Shown here piece by piece: positions 58,133 to 64,000 of a stretch of DNA of 64,000 nt. The position numbers and the translations under genes were made by a program. Position 1 is the stretch's first letter; each line of letters opens with the position of its first letter. The stretch lies in the NCBI RefSeq assembly GCF_900155395.1, contig NZ_LT699728.1:62001-126000 (forward strand), read 5' to 3'. The DNA comes from Merdibacter massiliensis. Lineage in GTDB: Bacteria; Bacillota_I; Bacilli_A; Erysipelotrichales; Erysipelotrichaceae. A model generated the notes under the pieces. The model was not told where the DNA came from, ran no database searches, and was given only the letters and a program-made list of their open reading frames with translations.

Positions 58133-58170
58133 AAAAGACAATTGGAAACGCTCTTTTCCAATTGTCTTTT
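58133..58170. terminator. Bidirectional terminator after the cupin gene
   Basis: AAAAGACAATTGGAAA (58133-58148) pairs with TTTCCAATTGTCTTTT (58155-58170), a perfect 16-bp stem, shared with the cohesin-like gene on the other strand. Confidence 0.93.
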
Positions 58171-58173
58171 ATT

Positions 58174-58905
58174 TTATCTTTGTTTCTTTTGTCTTATTGC
58201 TAATACGATAGCGAAACTGGCAATGATGCCGATGATCGCATAGGATAACAAATAGCGTGCAGTACCCGTTTCTACATCGGTTGATGACTGCTCTTGCCCA
58301 TTTGTTGGTGTTTCACCAACAGAAGGATCCTGTTGTGGTGAAAGTGGTGAGTCAGCTCCTTGATTTTCCTCTGCAACCGTATCATTTTCTGTATCCGGCT
58401 GTTTTTGAGGCGCATTTACGACCAGCTGTGTGCTTAATGAAGCTGTCATCACTTCCTGATCCAGGTTTTCATTGCCATCTACATAAGAAAGTCCGTCTTC
58501 TGCGATGGTGATGGTGAAGGATTGGGTTGCATCTGTATTTGTATGCAACTCGATCGTGCCTAAATGAAAGTCATTTTTATCGATGATCATCGTCGGATCT
58601 GATAGATAGATCGTATAGGTATGATTCGTTGAATCATACCTTGTATCTATGTAGTCCGCTTTGATTGCGCTATCCAATTGTAACGTAATCGGTCCTTTTG
58701 TATCAAGTTGATCGACATCCCCTTCCAAGCGCATCCGCAGCGAAAGTGTGGTGACTTTCTCTACAGTGGATGGCAATTGCAGAGTAATATCCACTTTATT
58801 ATTTTCACTTGTGAGGATGATTGATTTTTGCGATGCGGCTTGCACATGCTGCATAGGCAGCAGCATGATCATCAATAAAGCCCATACGATTGTTATTTTC
58901 TTCAT
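58174..58905 (-). CDS. Membrane-anchored protein with cohesin-like ectodomain
   Basis: 243 residues. Signal peptide (about 1-23, ending VQA), then about 140 residues of beta-rich domain whose pattern (VDITLQLPSTVEKVTTLSLRM, ITLQLDSAIKADYIDTRYD, HLGTIELHTN, TITIAEDGLSYVDGNE) resembles cohesin-type modules. A Pro/Gln/Asp-rich spacer follows, then a C-terminal membrane helix and RQKKQR; DVETG before the helix is not a normal sortase motif. It begins 16 bp after the dockerin-bearing M60 protease gene, so they form a pair. The cohesin assignment is structural inference, of moderate strength. Confidence 0.6.
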   Translation of the reverse strand: MKKITIVWALLMIMLLPMQHVQAASQKSIILTSENNKVDITLQLPSTVEKVTTLSLRMRLEGDVDQLDTKGPITLQLDSAIKADYIDTRYDSTNHTYTIYLSDPTMIIDKNDFHLGTIELHTNTDATQSFTITIAEDGLSYVDGNENLDQEVMTASLSTQLVVNAPQKQPDTENDTVAEENQGADSPLSPQQDPSVGETPTNGQEQSSTDVETGTARYLLSYAIIGIIASFAIVLAIRQKKQR

Positions 58906-58921
58906 ATGGTTTCCCCCTTTC

Positions 58922-61900
58922 TTATTTCTCTATCACGATATCTTCCAGCTGTGCAGGAACATCGATATACAGCGTATCGCTGGTCAAACGCTCTCCTTCA
59001 TTGGTCCATGCGTTATCCACACGGTACAGCTCCGCTTTGATCTGTGAAGGAAGCGTCGTCGCATGTTCTGGTTCGATCCAGTAGATCCAAGTTCCTTTGG
59101 ATACTTCCCCTAGTAGGGCATTGCCTGGATCTGGTGCCAAAATGATCTGTTGAGCCACCAGTTCTCCTTGGGCATTGGTTCCGCCTACGATGCTGCCATC
59201 AGCATCATAGAGCACAACGACATTGTAAGCGGGATTTCCTTTGTAGCTGCCCGCAAATACGATCGATCCGGCAGGAATCGATAGATCATTTTCCTGATCA
59301 TAAACAAACTCGGCTGCTAATTTGCCGATCGTCACTCTGCCTTGATCATCGCTGAACTCAATATTGTCTCCGGAAGGGCCTAAGATATCCAATTCAGTGA
59401 TGCCGATCGTTTGTTTTGCCTGTCCTTTGGCTGTCAGCTTGATGTAGCGGATATCATACGTTGTCACCCATGGATCACTGCCATTTTGGAAGTACACCGT
59501 ATCGCTGCCCTCTTCCATGTCAAAAGTACCGGTCGCAACACTTGTATATTGTTTTCCATCCACGCTGACTTCGATTACATAATCGCTGATCAAATTTGAC
59601 TTGGCATGATAGCGCAGAGCGCTCACTTCCAAGGTTTGTTTGAGATCGATCAATACATACGGATCTTTTTGTGCTTCTCCGCTGTATTCTTCACTATGAT
59701 CGCCATCAAGCACCATATGGATCGCTGCATGCGTTTCCGGCGCACATGGATCTTGCGGTGTTGCCTCCTGTGCATGGTCTTGCTGGGAAACCATGTTCGT
59801 ACTTACTGTGAATTGATCTTTTTCATAACTGCCGTCACTGATGACCTTGAGCGCATCCGTTGTCGCAACCGCACCGCGATTGGTCAGCTGATCGATCGGA
59901 TACACTTCATAATGCACTGCGCGGCTGCCCATCGTGATCGTATCTGTAAAAGTCGTTTGTCTGGTAAATCCGACCACTTCTTTTTCAATATTGCCTTTTT
60001 GTGTCGTCACACGTACGATCTCATAACCCAGGATCTGATCCTGATATGCCTCATTTGGATGGATCGTAAGAGTCACATTTCCATTTTTTACGCTGCTGTC
60101 GACATTTGTGATGACAGAGAGGCCTGCAAGAGAGCTTGCTTTTCCTTCCAGATCAAATGTTTTGGCGTCATCACTGATATAGTAAATAGCTCTCGTTTCT
60201 TCCGGGAACTGGTTCATGAAAGCAGCCGTCTCTTCATTTGGCACAAATCCCCAGCGGGTAAAGAAACTCGTCAGATCTTTGCATGCTGCTGCTGATACCA
60301 GACGCATCAGATCTTGATCTTTATCCCCGGATAAAACAAGTTTTCTTTCCCACTCTCCATTATTAAAGAGTGCACTATTTCTTGCATAGCTGTCCACACG
60401 GGCAAATAAACGATGTGCAAATATATCTTGATAATCGGCATACATCTTTTGTGCATATCCCTCATCATACGCCAGATGCAACTGCCAGTACATGCCCAGC
60501 TGGGTAAAGACATTCGAAGAATAGCCTAACGCATTGGATGTAACTTTGTCATATACATCTGCATAGTCAAAACGCACCCCGCCATTGGTACCATCTGCCT
60601 GCGCAACCAGAGCAAAATAGTTGTTCGTGATCTCATTGATCGCATAAGCCCCTTGATTGATCTGATGTCCGATCTCATGGGCAATGCCCCAGCCAAAATA
60701 AGAACCTTCAACTAATTTTCCGTTTTCATCGATGATTGGTTCTTGTTTTAGGATCAGTTCTTTGACCGAATCCCATTCAATACCGATATGATTGCCTGCC
60801 GCATACATAAAGGCACCAGAGAACATCTTCATGTAACGAATATTCAGGTGCTGACTTGGCAGGCGATTACCGCTGATCAGCGAAGGATCGCTTTCCTGGG
60901 CAAATGTATCGCTCAAGCCTTTATGCTGGTAAAACAGTTCCAGCATGGCATCCATTGCATCAGCTGTATATTGGATCTGCTCTTCTTCCTGTCCGCTTGT
61001 CAATGCGTCGAACACCTGACTTGCCGGCACGGAGATCATCATGTGATCCAACAGGATATCGGTCATGTTGTTCACACATGTTTTTTCATCATAGCTCTCT
61101 AATGAAAAGAATAAGAATTTACGACTATGTTCCTCATGTTTTGCCTGCAGCTGTTCTACATAAGCGCTTAATTCTTCCACATAGCTTTGGATGCGCTGTT
61201 GACGCTCTCCTTCTTCCGTGATGCCGACCAAGTCTAATACCGGGATCGGATTGCCGCCGTTGACACGCACTGCATAGCTGTCGCTTGTTTGACTGCCGGT
61301 ATATTGAATATACAATGCACCGCCTTTTTCTACATCTGTTGTTGTCAAAGCAGGAATGGTGATCACATTGCGTCCTACATTCAACGCAATCGTTTTCGAA
61401 AGCTGATCATATTCTCCATGCTGCTGGGTGACAACTAACTGCAGTTTGGATTTGCTGCCGCGGCTGCCGTTGTTCGTTCCTACATAGATCACGATTTCAT
61501 CTTCTGCTTTTGCTGTGATGCCTAACGGCTGCCAGGCATTTAGACCGGACAATTTTAAAGCAGAATCGTAGGAGGCACTGATATTGGTATGCACATGCAG
61601 CACATCATGAAGTTCCTTTTGTTCTGCATACAATTGTCTTGCCGCATCCAACTCTGCCTGCAAGGCTGCACGCTGAGGATGATAGTCACCATTGATCGTT
61701 GTATCGATGCGTGTCTGCAAAGCTGCAAAATCACTTTCATCCACCTGTTTGTTCAAAGATAAATACAGGTCATCTTGATACAATGCCCGAATATCGTCCG
61801 CTAATGAATCATATTCATATAATCTAACTTCTGCTACTTGAATACGACGCGTTCCATAATAGCTGACCTGCAGTCCCAACTGAATCTGATCACTTTCAAT

Positions 61901-64000
61901 TGGCTGTGCCAGATTGATCTCATAATAAGAACGTCCGTTTGGATCGCTTTTTCTTTGCAGAGAAAGACCTTGTGCCTTTTGTTTGACACCATCTTTCCAA
62001 TAGTAGACGGCCGCATCCGTATAATAAGTGGAATCATCCGGTGCCGCAACGGCAAAGCGATCCATCTGAAAACTCTGATCCAGCTGGATCGTCAGTCCCC
62101 ATCCTTCATTTCCGGTATGGTACGTGACCGCATCATCCCAGTCATTGATCTGATAATAAGAAGAAAAGTCATTGTCGGCGATACCGAGTGCACTGACATC
62201 ATGATCAAGAGGGCTATTGTACATCATCGTGCCTGCACGGCGTGTAACGCTGACGATATGATCGCTTAATTCGCCTTCTTCCTTTGTGCCATTGATAATG
62301 CGGTACTGAGAGAAGATCACCGGCTGATTTCCTTTGGTCTGGACCGTTGCTTCTAATGATGCAGGACCCTCTCCATGTTCATTGACGGCCGTTACATAAA
62401 TGTGATACGTTGTTTGATCTTCCAAGTCATACAGCGTATGGTTGGTCTTTGTGATCCCGGTCACAGTTTGATACTGTGTATCTCCTTGTTTTTTATAATA
62501 CAAGTTATAACTGTCCGCTGCCTGCCCTTTTGGTGCGCTCCATGTTGCCTGAATGATCTTGTAATCGCTGCTTAATTTTAAAGAATCTGGTGCATCCGGG
62601 ATCGAATCATATCTTGGCGTGGCCTGATACGTTTTTTCATAGCCGCTTTTCCAGTTTCCATTGACCGACTGTACCGCGATCGTATATGTTTTCTTATTTT
62701 CCAAAGAACGATTGCGGAAATTTTTGATTTCGATCTTCGTATTTTTTGTATCGATGACTTCTGTATAACCGTCCAAAGTGATCAATACCTGATATCCGGT
62801 AATGTTCGTTGTTTTTTTCCAGGCGATTGCAATCGTTTGATTTCCGGCAGTCACTTCAATGACTTCCGGTATGTCCAGTGTCGGTGCAGGAATATAGTTT
62901 TCCATCTTGTTGACAAACTCGACGCTGGTGATCTCCGCCAAAGTTGCATCTTTTTGCGCCATTGAGGTAATCGTAATGGTAACTTTTTTCACCGCCAGCT
63001 GGCCGTTTAATTTGATCGTCAACTGTCCATTGGCATCCGTCTGCGCGCTACCGATCACATTCGTCATGCGCAAACGTGATGCGCCGATGATGATCTGTCC
63101 GGTTTTTTCCACGCCGTTTTCCATATAGGTGATTTCAACCGTTCCCGTGTCGATCGGATTATTTGCCGGTGTCTGCAAAACCAGACCATCCATTTCGATT
63201 TGTTCCTGAGATGCAGGCAATGTAAACGAAATCGCTACTGGATTTTCTTCACTGATCACCGTTTGCTCTCCTGCCGGCCGCAGAGATACGGAACCGGTAC
63301 CAGATAACAGATCAGAAATACTGCCTTCCTGCACTGTATCTTGTCCTACTTCTCCTTGAATGATGCCCGGAGCGATCGTAGAAACGATATTTCCCTGCTT
63401 CACAGTATAAGAAAGATCATCTACGTACAGCATGCGTACCGCTTTTTCCAGATCCAGCAAATTGATGACCCCATTGCCATCTACATCGCAGTTAGCATCA
63501 TAGACGCCTGTTTCGATTGCATCCGTCACTGCGTTAACATCCTCTTTGTTCACTGTTCCATCCTGATTGAAGTCGCCATATGGCATGTTTCCGATTCCTT
63601 CCATCTCCATGGAACCGGCGGCAACCGTGATGCTGTAGTCATACCCCTTTTCAATTGTCACATTTTGTTCATAAGCTGCAAAACCAGCCGCTTCGATGCA
63701 CAAAACATAGACACCTGGAGCAAGTGCATCAAAGTTCGCCGATACCAGATCACTTTGCTGCTCATCAAAATTCAGGGTCTTTCTTTGATCCGTGTCTTTC
63801 AAGTACACTTGAAAAGATCGTGTTTGTTCCCCCATCCATGTATCTTGCAAAGTTACTTTCAAAGAACTCGTATAATCTACAGTTTCTGTAATAGCAATAT
63901 TGTCTTCCACATGTTCTGATTTATCGCTGTTTTCCTGCGAATCAACTGTTTCTGTTAATGTTTCCTCATTGCCGTTTTCGGCATGTAAGGTAAACATTCC
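58922..64000 (-). CDS. Giant secreted M60-like (enhancin) metalloprotease with dockerin, Fn3 and discoidin domains (5' partial)
   Basis: At least 1691 residues; the start lies beyond the window (the visible GMFTLHA|EN looks like the end of a signal peptide). In order, numbered from the codon at 63997: a carboxypeptidase-like beta domain (about 43-128), a type I dockerin (about 140-191, with two calcium loops DFNQDGTVNKEDVNAV and DVDGNGVINLLDLEKAV), a beta region, two Fn3 domains (about 380-560), a discoidin-like domain, the M60 gluzincin core with HEIGHQ (about 1107-1112) and downstream ITNNYFAL, and a second discoidin near 1480-1600. M60 proteases cleave mucins. No membrane anchor of its own. 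Confidence 0.88.
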   Translation of the reverse strand, partial: GMFTLHAENGNEETLTETVDSQENSDKSEHVEDNIAITETVDYTSSLKVTLQDTWMGEQTRSFQVYLKDTDQRKTLNFDEQQSDLVSANFDALAPGVYVLCIEAAGFAAYEQNVTIEKGYDYSITVAAGSMEMEGIGNMPYGDFNQDGTVNKEDVNAVTDAIETGVYDANCDVDGNGVINLLDLEKAVRMLYVDDLSYTVKQGNIVSTIAPGIIQGEVGQDTVQEGSISDLLSGTGSVSLRPAGEQTVISEENPVAISFTLPASQEQIEMDGLVLQTPANNPIDTGTVEITYMENGVEKTGQIIIGASRLRMTNVIGSAQTDANGQLTIKLNGQLAVKKVTITITSMAQKDATLAEITSVEFVNKMENYIPAPTLDIPEVIEVTAGNQTIAIAWKKTTNITGYQVLITLDGYTEVIDTKNTKIEIKNFRNRSLENKKTYTIAVQSVNGNWKSGYEKTYQATPRYDSIPDAPDSLKLSSDYKIIQATWSAPKGQAADSYNLYYKKQGDTQYQTVTGITKTNHTLYDLEDQTTYHIYVTAVNEHGEGPASLEATVQTKGNQPVIFSQYRIINGTKEEGELSDHIVSVTRRAGTMMYNSPLDHDVSALGIADNDFSSYYQINDWDDAVTYHTGNEGWGLTIQLDQSFQMDRFAVAAPDDSTYYTDAAVYYWKDGVKQKAQGLSLQRKSDPNGRSYYEINLAQPIESDQIQLGLQVSYYGTRRIQVAEVRLYEYDSLADDIRALYQDDLYLSLNKQVDESDFAALQTRIDTTINGDYHPQRAALQAELDAARQLYAEQKELHDVLHVHTNISASYDSALKLSGLNAWQPLGITAKAEDEIVIYVGTNNGSRGSKSKLQLVVTQQHGEYDQLSKTIALNVGRNVITIPALTTTDVEKGGALYIQYTGSQTSDSYAVRVNGGNPIPVLDLVGITEEGERQQRIQSYVEELSAYVEQLQAKHEEHSRKFLFFSLESYDEKTCVNNMTDILLDHMMISVPASQVFDALTSGQEEEQIQYTADAMDAMLELFYQHKGLSDTFAQESDPSLISGNRLPSQHLNIRYMKMFSGAFMYAAGNHIGIEWDSVKELILKQEPIIDENGKLVEGSYFGWGIAHEIGHQINQGAYAINEITNNYFALVAQADGTNGGVRFDYADVYDKVTSNALGYSSNVFTQLGMYWQLHLAYDEGYAQKMYADYQDIFAHRLFARVDSYARNSALFNNGEWERKLVLSGDKDQDLMRLVSAAACKDLTSFFTRWGFVPNEETAAFMNQFPEETRAIYYISDDAKTFDLEGKASSLAGLSVITNVDSSVKNGNVTLTIHPNEAYQDQILGYEIVRVTTQKGNIEKEVVGFTRQTTFTDTITMGSRAVHYEVYPIDQLTNRGAVATTDALKVISDGSYEKDQFTVSTNMVSQQDHAQEATPQDPCAPETHAAIHMVLDGDHSEEYSGEAQKDPYVLIDLKQTLEVSALRYHAKSNLISDYVIEVSVDGKQYTSVATGTFDMEEGSDTVYFQNGSDPWVTTYDIRYIKLTAKGQAKQTIGITELDILGPSGDNIEFSDDQGRVTIGKLAAEFVYDQENDLSIPAGSIVFAGSYKGNPAYNVVVLYDADGSIVGGTNAQGELVAQQIILAPDPGNALLGEVSKGTWIYWIEPEHATTLPSQIKAELYRVDNAWTNEGERLTSDTLYIDVPAQLEDIVIEK
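63425..63580 (-). other. Dockerin coding segment in the M60 protease
   Basis: Two duplicated EF-hand-like loops separated by about 17 residues: YGDFNQDGTVNKEDV and NCDVDGNGVINLLDL. Asp/Asn residues fall at the calcium positions of both loops. Most dockerins are C-terminal; this one is near the N-terminus. Confidence 0.85.

Follow-up and report, generated by a model that had tools for sequence, protein, structure and literature searches.

What holds a secreted, dockerin-bearing protease on its cell when the enzyme has no anchor of its own and its genome encodes no recognizable scaffoldin? This question is raised by a 64,000-nucleotide stretch of the Merdibacter massiliensis genome (hereafter, the window; positions 62001-126000 of contig C23, in a genome of 2.47 Mb that is 99.9% complete), at one end of which the gene for a peptidase of the M60 type is followed by the gene for a small membrane-anchored protein. 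We propose that the two products probably form a private docking pair, in which the protease is bound through its dockerin by a cohesin-like domain of the anchored partner and is kept on the cell surface; the assignment of the small protein as a dedicated receptor that would hold the protease there appears well supported. The unit comprises the following elements.

58922-64063 (in the window 58922..64000; C23:120922-126063), minus strand: gene for the M60 protease, 1,713 amino acids (open reading frame and start codon, Pfam, HEIGH...E motif).
58174..58905, minus strand: gene for the membrane-anchored cohesin-like protein, 243 amino acids (open reading frame; the same domain lies next to, or is fused with, the protease in relatives).
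58133..58170, no strand assigned: terminator-like hairpin (16-bp stem, U-rich on both strands, -21.3 kcal/mol, z = -7.2).

The start codon of the protease gene lies at 64063, 63 bases past the window end, and is preceded by a gggagg ribosome site; the product begins with the signal peptide MKKRFIRILCGLLALQIAMGNG..HA. Between the protease stop and the small gene there are 16 base pairs (bp), the small gene has a ribosome site of its own, and the strong terminator-like hairpin with U-rich flanks that comes after it closes the two-gene unit. The two proteins are probably translated from one message. A preliminary description of the window had proposed a same-direction gene pair separated by 16 bp and a secreted, dockerin-bearing M60 protease that lacks an anchor. 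The pair is confirmed on the minus strand, and the account of the protease holds in view of its signal peptide, its Pfam profile matches and the lack of a C-terminal membrane helix, of which none is visible in the window protease; a scan of protease relatives did not reveal one either.

The pairing of the two genes is nearly perfect among relatives. These were collected through the protease and not through the small protein (80 loci of at least 495 relatives), and a hidden Markov model (HMM) of the cohesin-like domain was run in six frames on those for which 400 bp or more of sequence was available downstream. The domain was detected in 76 of 76 testable relatives, in the next gene in 73 of them and fused into the protease reading frame in the other three; the HMM was built from most of the tested loci, at least 13 of the 76 lay outside its alignment, and all loci had been chosen by the protease only. 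The adjacency that the preliminary description expected in related genomes was thus recovered throughout the testable set. By a strict rule, an anchored neighbor was assigned to 53 of 67 protease relatives versus 27 of 534 other nearby genes. Among 196 genomes of the family, which also includes Amedibacillus dolichus with the same locus (G007:C6, NZ_DS483473.1), the domain is present in 10, always as one copy, and each of these belongs to the set of 11 that have an M60 protease; the 11 proteases appear to be of the same dockerin-bearing type or sit at contig edges. Domain and protease are side by side in 9 of the 10 genomes, and in the remaining one (G204) they are on separate contigs, both near contig edges. 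The chance of this co-occurrence under independence is 6e-16, a figure that makes the linkage look stronger than it is, since the genomes are related. In the three fused reading frames (L064:288-6344, L069:6941-13270 and L073:2221-8313), the order is the protease with its X-dockerin, the cohesin-like domain and a second dockerin, which scores 31.4 bits in L069 and 17-18 bits, below the cut-off, in L064 and L073; this second dockerin takes the place of the membrane helix, and a further cohesin is therefore predicted in those genomes.

The small protein is built from the parts listed here.

58837..58905 (residues 1-23), minus strand: signal peptide (sequence; A23 common to 63 of 68 aligned relatives).
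58417..58830 (residues ~26-163), minus strand: cohesin-fold domain (AlphaFold2, Foldseek, VIA).
58258..58416, minus strand: disordered spacer rich in Pro, Thr and Glu (composition; length and sequence vary among relatives).
58195..58254, minus strand: C-terminal membrane helix (residues 218-237), followed by RQKKQR (hydropathy and sequence).

The next genes of the protease relatives were aligned with the window protein (alignment A3; 64 sequences, 11-36% identical to the window protein), and AlphaFold2 modeled residues 22-172 as a nine-stranded domain with a predicted local distance difference test score (pLDDT) of 90.6 and a predicted template modeling score of 0.84. Foldseek ranked cohesins first (6kgf_C, E-value 5.9e-7, template modeling (TM) score ~0.6). 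In VIA-align the best 44 entries were all cohesins, with Z from 12.5 to 8.9, the top match covering 134 residues at 3.2 Å and the type I cohesins standing highest, and the first unrelated entry followed at 8.5; the Clostridium perfringens cohesin 2vo8 was among the matches in both searches. Type II cohesins have a helix between strands 6 and 7 (PMC5141474), which is absent from our model (strands 75-81 and 91-99). Conserved positions include R89-Y90 on strand 5, Y100 on strand 6 (66 of 68 sequences) and G116 (68 of 68); because the dockerin-binding sheet of known cohesins consists of strands 8-3-6-5 (PMC5141474), R89-Y90 and Y100 would, by analogy, lie on the dockerin-binding face. The small protein gave no match in Pfam, NCBIfam or PDB sequences, and a single-sequence scan of the genome contigs with it returned no relatives. 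The domain is therefore a cohesin by its predicted fold and undetectable as one by sequence, and we call it cohesin-like since no sequence profile matches it despite the fold.

On the protease side, the docking region is located close to the N-terminus.

63599..63886 (residues ~60-155), minus strand: X-module-like beta domain (AlphaFold2 model, Foldseek and VIA matches, CarboxypepD_reg in relatives).
63425..63580 (residues 162-213), minus strand: dockerin (Pfam Dockerin_1 above the cut-off; calcium ligands conserved).

Dockerin_1 (PF00404) matched residues 162-206 of the window protease with 23.6 bits against a cut-off of 22.9 (23.6-30.1 bits over scans), and the predicted dockerin aligned with dockerin 2vn5_B at Z 8.3, with a root-mean-square deviation of 1.7 over 56 residues (VIA). 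Its calcium loops, D164-D175 and D193-D204, are spaced 29 residues apart; among 75 aligned proteases, 68 have a full set of calcium ligands in loop 1, 74 have one in loop 2, and 67 have both loops complete. The better-conserved half of the dockerin consists of loop 2 and its helix, with L at position 10 in 71, D12 in 75 and L13 in 74 of the 75 sequences, and this conservation hints that loop 2 and its helix dominate partner binding. The AlphaFold2 model of residues 60-236, for which 69 sequences were used, reached a pLDDT of 92.6. Its top ten Foldseek matches were type II X-dockerin tandems of cellulosome scaffoldins, and the only VIA entries above Z 10 were eight type II X-dockerins (Z 10.5-11.5 over ~140 residues), the next entry scoring 8.5. 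In 40 of 69 relatives, Pfam placed CarboxypepD_reg matches in the X-module region, in agreement with the description of the X-module as resembling a carboxypeptidase D domain (PMC5141474). In the model, the X-module is packed directly before the dockerin, as in type II X-dockerins (XDoc), and the docking region as predicted matches the type II tandem that tethers cellulosomes to cells. It departs from that tandem in position, being internal to an enzyme (residues 60-213 of 1,713) and not at the C-terminal end of a scaffoldin, and for this reason we name it XDoc-like.

Taken in sequence, the proposed events are as follows. The secreted protease, having no anchor of its own, would meet the small protein outside the cell, and its dockerin helices, most likely loop 2 and its helix, would dock onto the cohesin-like domain at its 8-3-6-5 face, presumably in a calcium-dependent manner. 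Carried by a flexible stalk and a membrane helix, the cohesin-like domain would keep the protease at the cell surface, where the enzyme may cut O-glycosylated (mucin-type) proteins. The XDocs of Clostridium thermocellum have anchoring proteins with a single cohesin, ScaF and ScaH among them, as binding partners (PMC5141474), and by analogy this binding is a direct precedent for the tether proposed here. A Pfam scan of the window genome found no scaffoldin and no cohesin. With one cohesin-like domain for each enzyme, and a genome in which no scaffoldin was found, the arrangement that we propose is a 1:1 tether of one enzyme and not a scaffolded mini-cellulosome; the latter term, which had been used in the preliminary description, does not fit a single-copy protein with one cohesin-like domain in a genome where no multi-cohesin scaffoldin was detected by Pfam.

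The remainder of the protease comprises the domains listed here.

60194..60856 (residues ~1070-1290), minus strand: M60 catalytic domain region (Pfam 1124-1272; PDB matches 5kdj, 7jfs and 6xsz, the last being ZmpC).
62324..62851 (residues ~405-580), minus strand: two FN3 domains (Pfam fn3, 50.6 bits).
59414..59719 (residues 1449-1550), minus strand: F5/8 type C (CBM32-like) domain (Pfam, 35.7 bits).
58925..59356 (residues ~1570-1713), minus strand: C-terminal domain of ~145 amino acids (highly conserved in alignment A2), with no Pfam match.

Peptidase_M60 (PF13402) matched residues 1124-1272 with 42.6 bits against a cut-off of 25.8, and the zinc motif HEIGH at 1129-1133 and E1144 are invariant across alignment A2.

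Several observations weigh against the docking pair. Pfam reported no match to the cohesin family PF00963 in the small protein; a PDB profile search started from it found no cohesin and returned one weak match to a designed protein; and hhalign of its domain against Pfam-type cohesins of the same bacterial family gave a probability of 0.3%. The cohesin identity was the acknowledged weak point of the preliminary description, and it is now supported by fold prediction, through the nine strands and the unbroken run of cohesins among the best matches, and not by sequence profiles. In addition, dockerin loop 1 has been lost in Amedibacillus (G007/L028; L014:10530-15704) and in G008 (L013:3953-9064), where loop 2 and the partner are kept; in A. 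dolichus and G008 the module is possibly a one-calcium dockerin. The partners at L024, L038, L063, L087 and L092 end in FN3-like or Ig-like tails and have no membrane helix, and membrane anchoring is thus not universal. Lastly, mirror-tree partial correlations (r) with the partner were 0.23 for the X-module, 0.23 for the dockerin, 0.26 for the C-terminal domain and 0.22 for FN3, and therefore do not single out the dockerin.

These last values put the C-terminal domain and FN3 on a par with the X-module and dockerin in their covariation with the partner, and are compatible with the best-surviving alternative, namely that the small protein binds some other part of the protease, for instance the FN3 pair or the C-terminal domain. 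The X-dockerin would then have a different cohesin as its target or do no more than make the N-terminal region stiffer. The distance of the dockerin from the shared gene border and the retention of the partner in Amedibacillus after the loss of loop 1 point in the same direction. We nevertheless consider such binding unlikely, because the predicted fold of the partner is precisely the dockerin-binding one, the genome holds no Pfam-visible cohesin for the dockerin to use, and the same kind of neighbor occurs beside other dockerin enzymes that do not have this C-terminal domain. Less probable still is the possibility that the small protein acts mainly as a folding helper, stabilizer or activity regulator of the protease, tethering being secondary. 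Such a role would explain why the pairing persists even where the anchor is missing, both in the helix-free partners named above and in the three fused loci, but the stalk and the membrane helix are retained in the majority of partners (53 of 67 by the strict rule), and the fused versions finish in a second dockerin-like module, which is another attachment device. We give very little credence to the idea that the cohesin-fold domain is an adhesin for host glycans or glycoproteins, placed beside the protease through joint regulation for mucus colonization: Foldseek does list collagen-binding and Als adhesins, which have jelly-roll folds too, further down, but these align at TM scores of 0.33-0.42 against ~0.6 for cohesins, and an adhesin should sometimes occur without the protease, whereas the domain is restricted to protease-bearing genomes among the 196. 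Hardly any probability attaches to a branch of a multi-enzyme scaffold (mini-cellulosome or mucinolysome), in which the protease would sit on a scaffoldin with several cohesins and other dockerin enzymes would go to the small protein, since two more such enzymes in the genome and the Limousia peptidases that sit on multi-cohesin scaffoldins (PMC12997984) are outweighed by the lack of any Pfam cohesin in the window genome, by the anchored neighbor that each of the three dockerin genes has for itself, and by a single-copy cohesin-like domain that tracks only the M60 protease.

Returning to the private docking pair, its gene layout recurs beside other dockerin genes. The window genome has two further ones, for a glucosaminidase (contig C20) and a GH25 lysozyme (C23, 185 kb), each followed within ~20 bp by the gene of a membrane-anchored beta protein. 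These two pairs are located at L018:8300-11405 and L019:8630-11527, with the partner genes at L018:10050-11405 and L019:8630-9982. Each partner protein has an N-terminal beta domain of ~90 amino acids, for which no named family was found, a PF12733 cadherin-like domain and a membrane helix. At L018:6164-8130, the end of rpoC and the start of the glucosaminidase gene occur a second time, as a partial copy beside a run of N that is probably an assembly duplication. We sampled 40 dockerin loci from the family, 33 of which have a C-terminal dockerin and downstream room; a gene with a signal peptide follows within 60 bp in 32 of the 33, and 23 of the 26 complete partners have a membrane helix. The first domain passed the Pfam cohesin cut-off in 8 of 10 tested partners, with scores of up to 62 bits; in L168 and L186, where tandem cadherin-like domains had masked the cohesins in the whole-protein Pfam scan, they were found by scanning the N-terminal 210 residues. 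One partner cohesin domain matched the solved cohesin 5nrm directly (E-value 6e-6). Pfam dockerins and cohesins form thirteen pairs with a separation of 99-206 bp, in consecutive genes where inspected. For the layout of the window pair, such Pfam-visible gene pairs serve as natural positive controls.

Outside the two-gene unit, a LysR-type regulator gene (L001:8153-9094) lies on the same strand, 89 bp upstream of the protease, and is a candidate regulator of the pair. The start sequence MWDLLMKYLCPRDFRRGEMEE, or a near-identical one, heads unrelated reading frames (L001:9200-11240, L019:1-966 and L019:13134) beside IS110-like transposase genes, and this repeated start looks like the end of an insertion element. 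The transposase genes are listed here.

L001:11475-12731: IS110-like transposase gene.
L019:1202-2458: IS110-like transposase gene.

Among known systems, the closest in structure is that of C. thermocellum, in which the XDocs of CipA/CipB pair with ScaF-, ScaH- and SdbA-type cohesins (PMC5141474): there, too, an X-module with a carboxypeptidase-D-like Ig fold precedes the dockerin, the whole predicted tandem matches, and the cohesin-fold partner is on a cell-bound protein, sometimes as a single cohesin. The window pair differs in that its XDoc is inside a protease near the N-terminus and not at the end of a scaffoldin, in that its cohesin-like model comes nearest to type I cohesins and has no strand 6-7 helix of the type II kind, and in that one enzyme, rather than a complex, would be tethered. 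Proteins with one cohesin and a C-terminal membrane helix have been classed as non-SLH anchoring scaffoldins in Lachnoclostridium sp. MSJ-17 (PMC11557425); those were found by profile and are not described as the adjacent partner of one enzyme, whereas the window domain is invisible to profiles and tied to one protease. The glycoside hydrolases and ZmpA/B/C of C. perfringens (PMC12997984; PDB 5kdn, 6xsz, 2vo8) likewise make pairwise, non-cellulosomal cohesin-dockerin contacts and include related M60 domains, but the cohesin is on another enzyme there, giving enzyme-enzyme pairs, and on a small anchor protein here. The mucinolysome of Limousia (PMC12997984) likewise has mucin peptidases that bear dockerins and a cohesin protein anchored at the surface, yet it uses several scaffoldins with up to 12 cohesins, and nothing comparable was found by Pfam in the window genome. 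The M60-like peptidases of mucosal microbes (PMC3267712; relatives of OgpA, BT4244 and SslE) share the catalytic domain and also have FN3 and CBM32-type modules; two of the M60-like proteins surveyed there are listed with Dockerin type 1, and the survey mentions no cohesin partner. We found no description of this gene pair in open-licence papers.

Thus, single-cohesin proteins with a membrane helix (PMC11557425), the pairwise contacts of C. perfringens and the dockerin peptidases of Limousia (PMC12997984), and rare M60 dockerins (PMC3267712) were already known. What is new is the presence of an XDoc inside a protease, the encoding of the proposed receptor by the next gene, and the dedication of that receptor to one enzyme; among open-licence papers, none was found that describes an XDoc on an enzyme together with a dedicated adjacent cohesin that escapes profiles, conserved across gut Clostridia and Erysipelotrichaceae. 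A survey of human gut genomes counted 26,894 genomes with dockerin proteins and 6,562 with cohesin proteins (PMC12997984), and most gut dockerins therefore have no visible partner. We lean, by a narrow balance, toward the view that private pairs are the main use of dockerins in gut Erysipelotrichaceae and related Clostridia, that each dockerin-bearing surface enzyme (be it a glycosidase, a glucosaminidase, a lysozyme or a mucin protease) is co-transcribed with its own membrane-anchored cohesin-type receptor, that many of these receptors are invisible to profiles, and that much of the excess of "orphan" dockerins may be a detection artefact. The window locus provides one concrete answer to the orphan dockerins, in the form of a partner in the next gene with a predicted cohesin fold and no sequence profile, and the question becomes testable locus by locus; the pairs also supply new candidates for protein display. 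A module for the attachment of cellulosomes to cells, when found in a mucin-type protease, alters the picture of surface mucin degradation in common gut bacteria.

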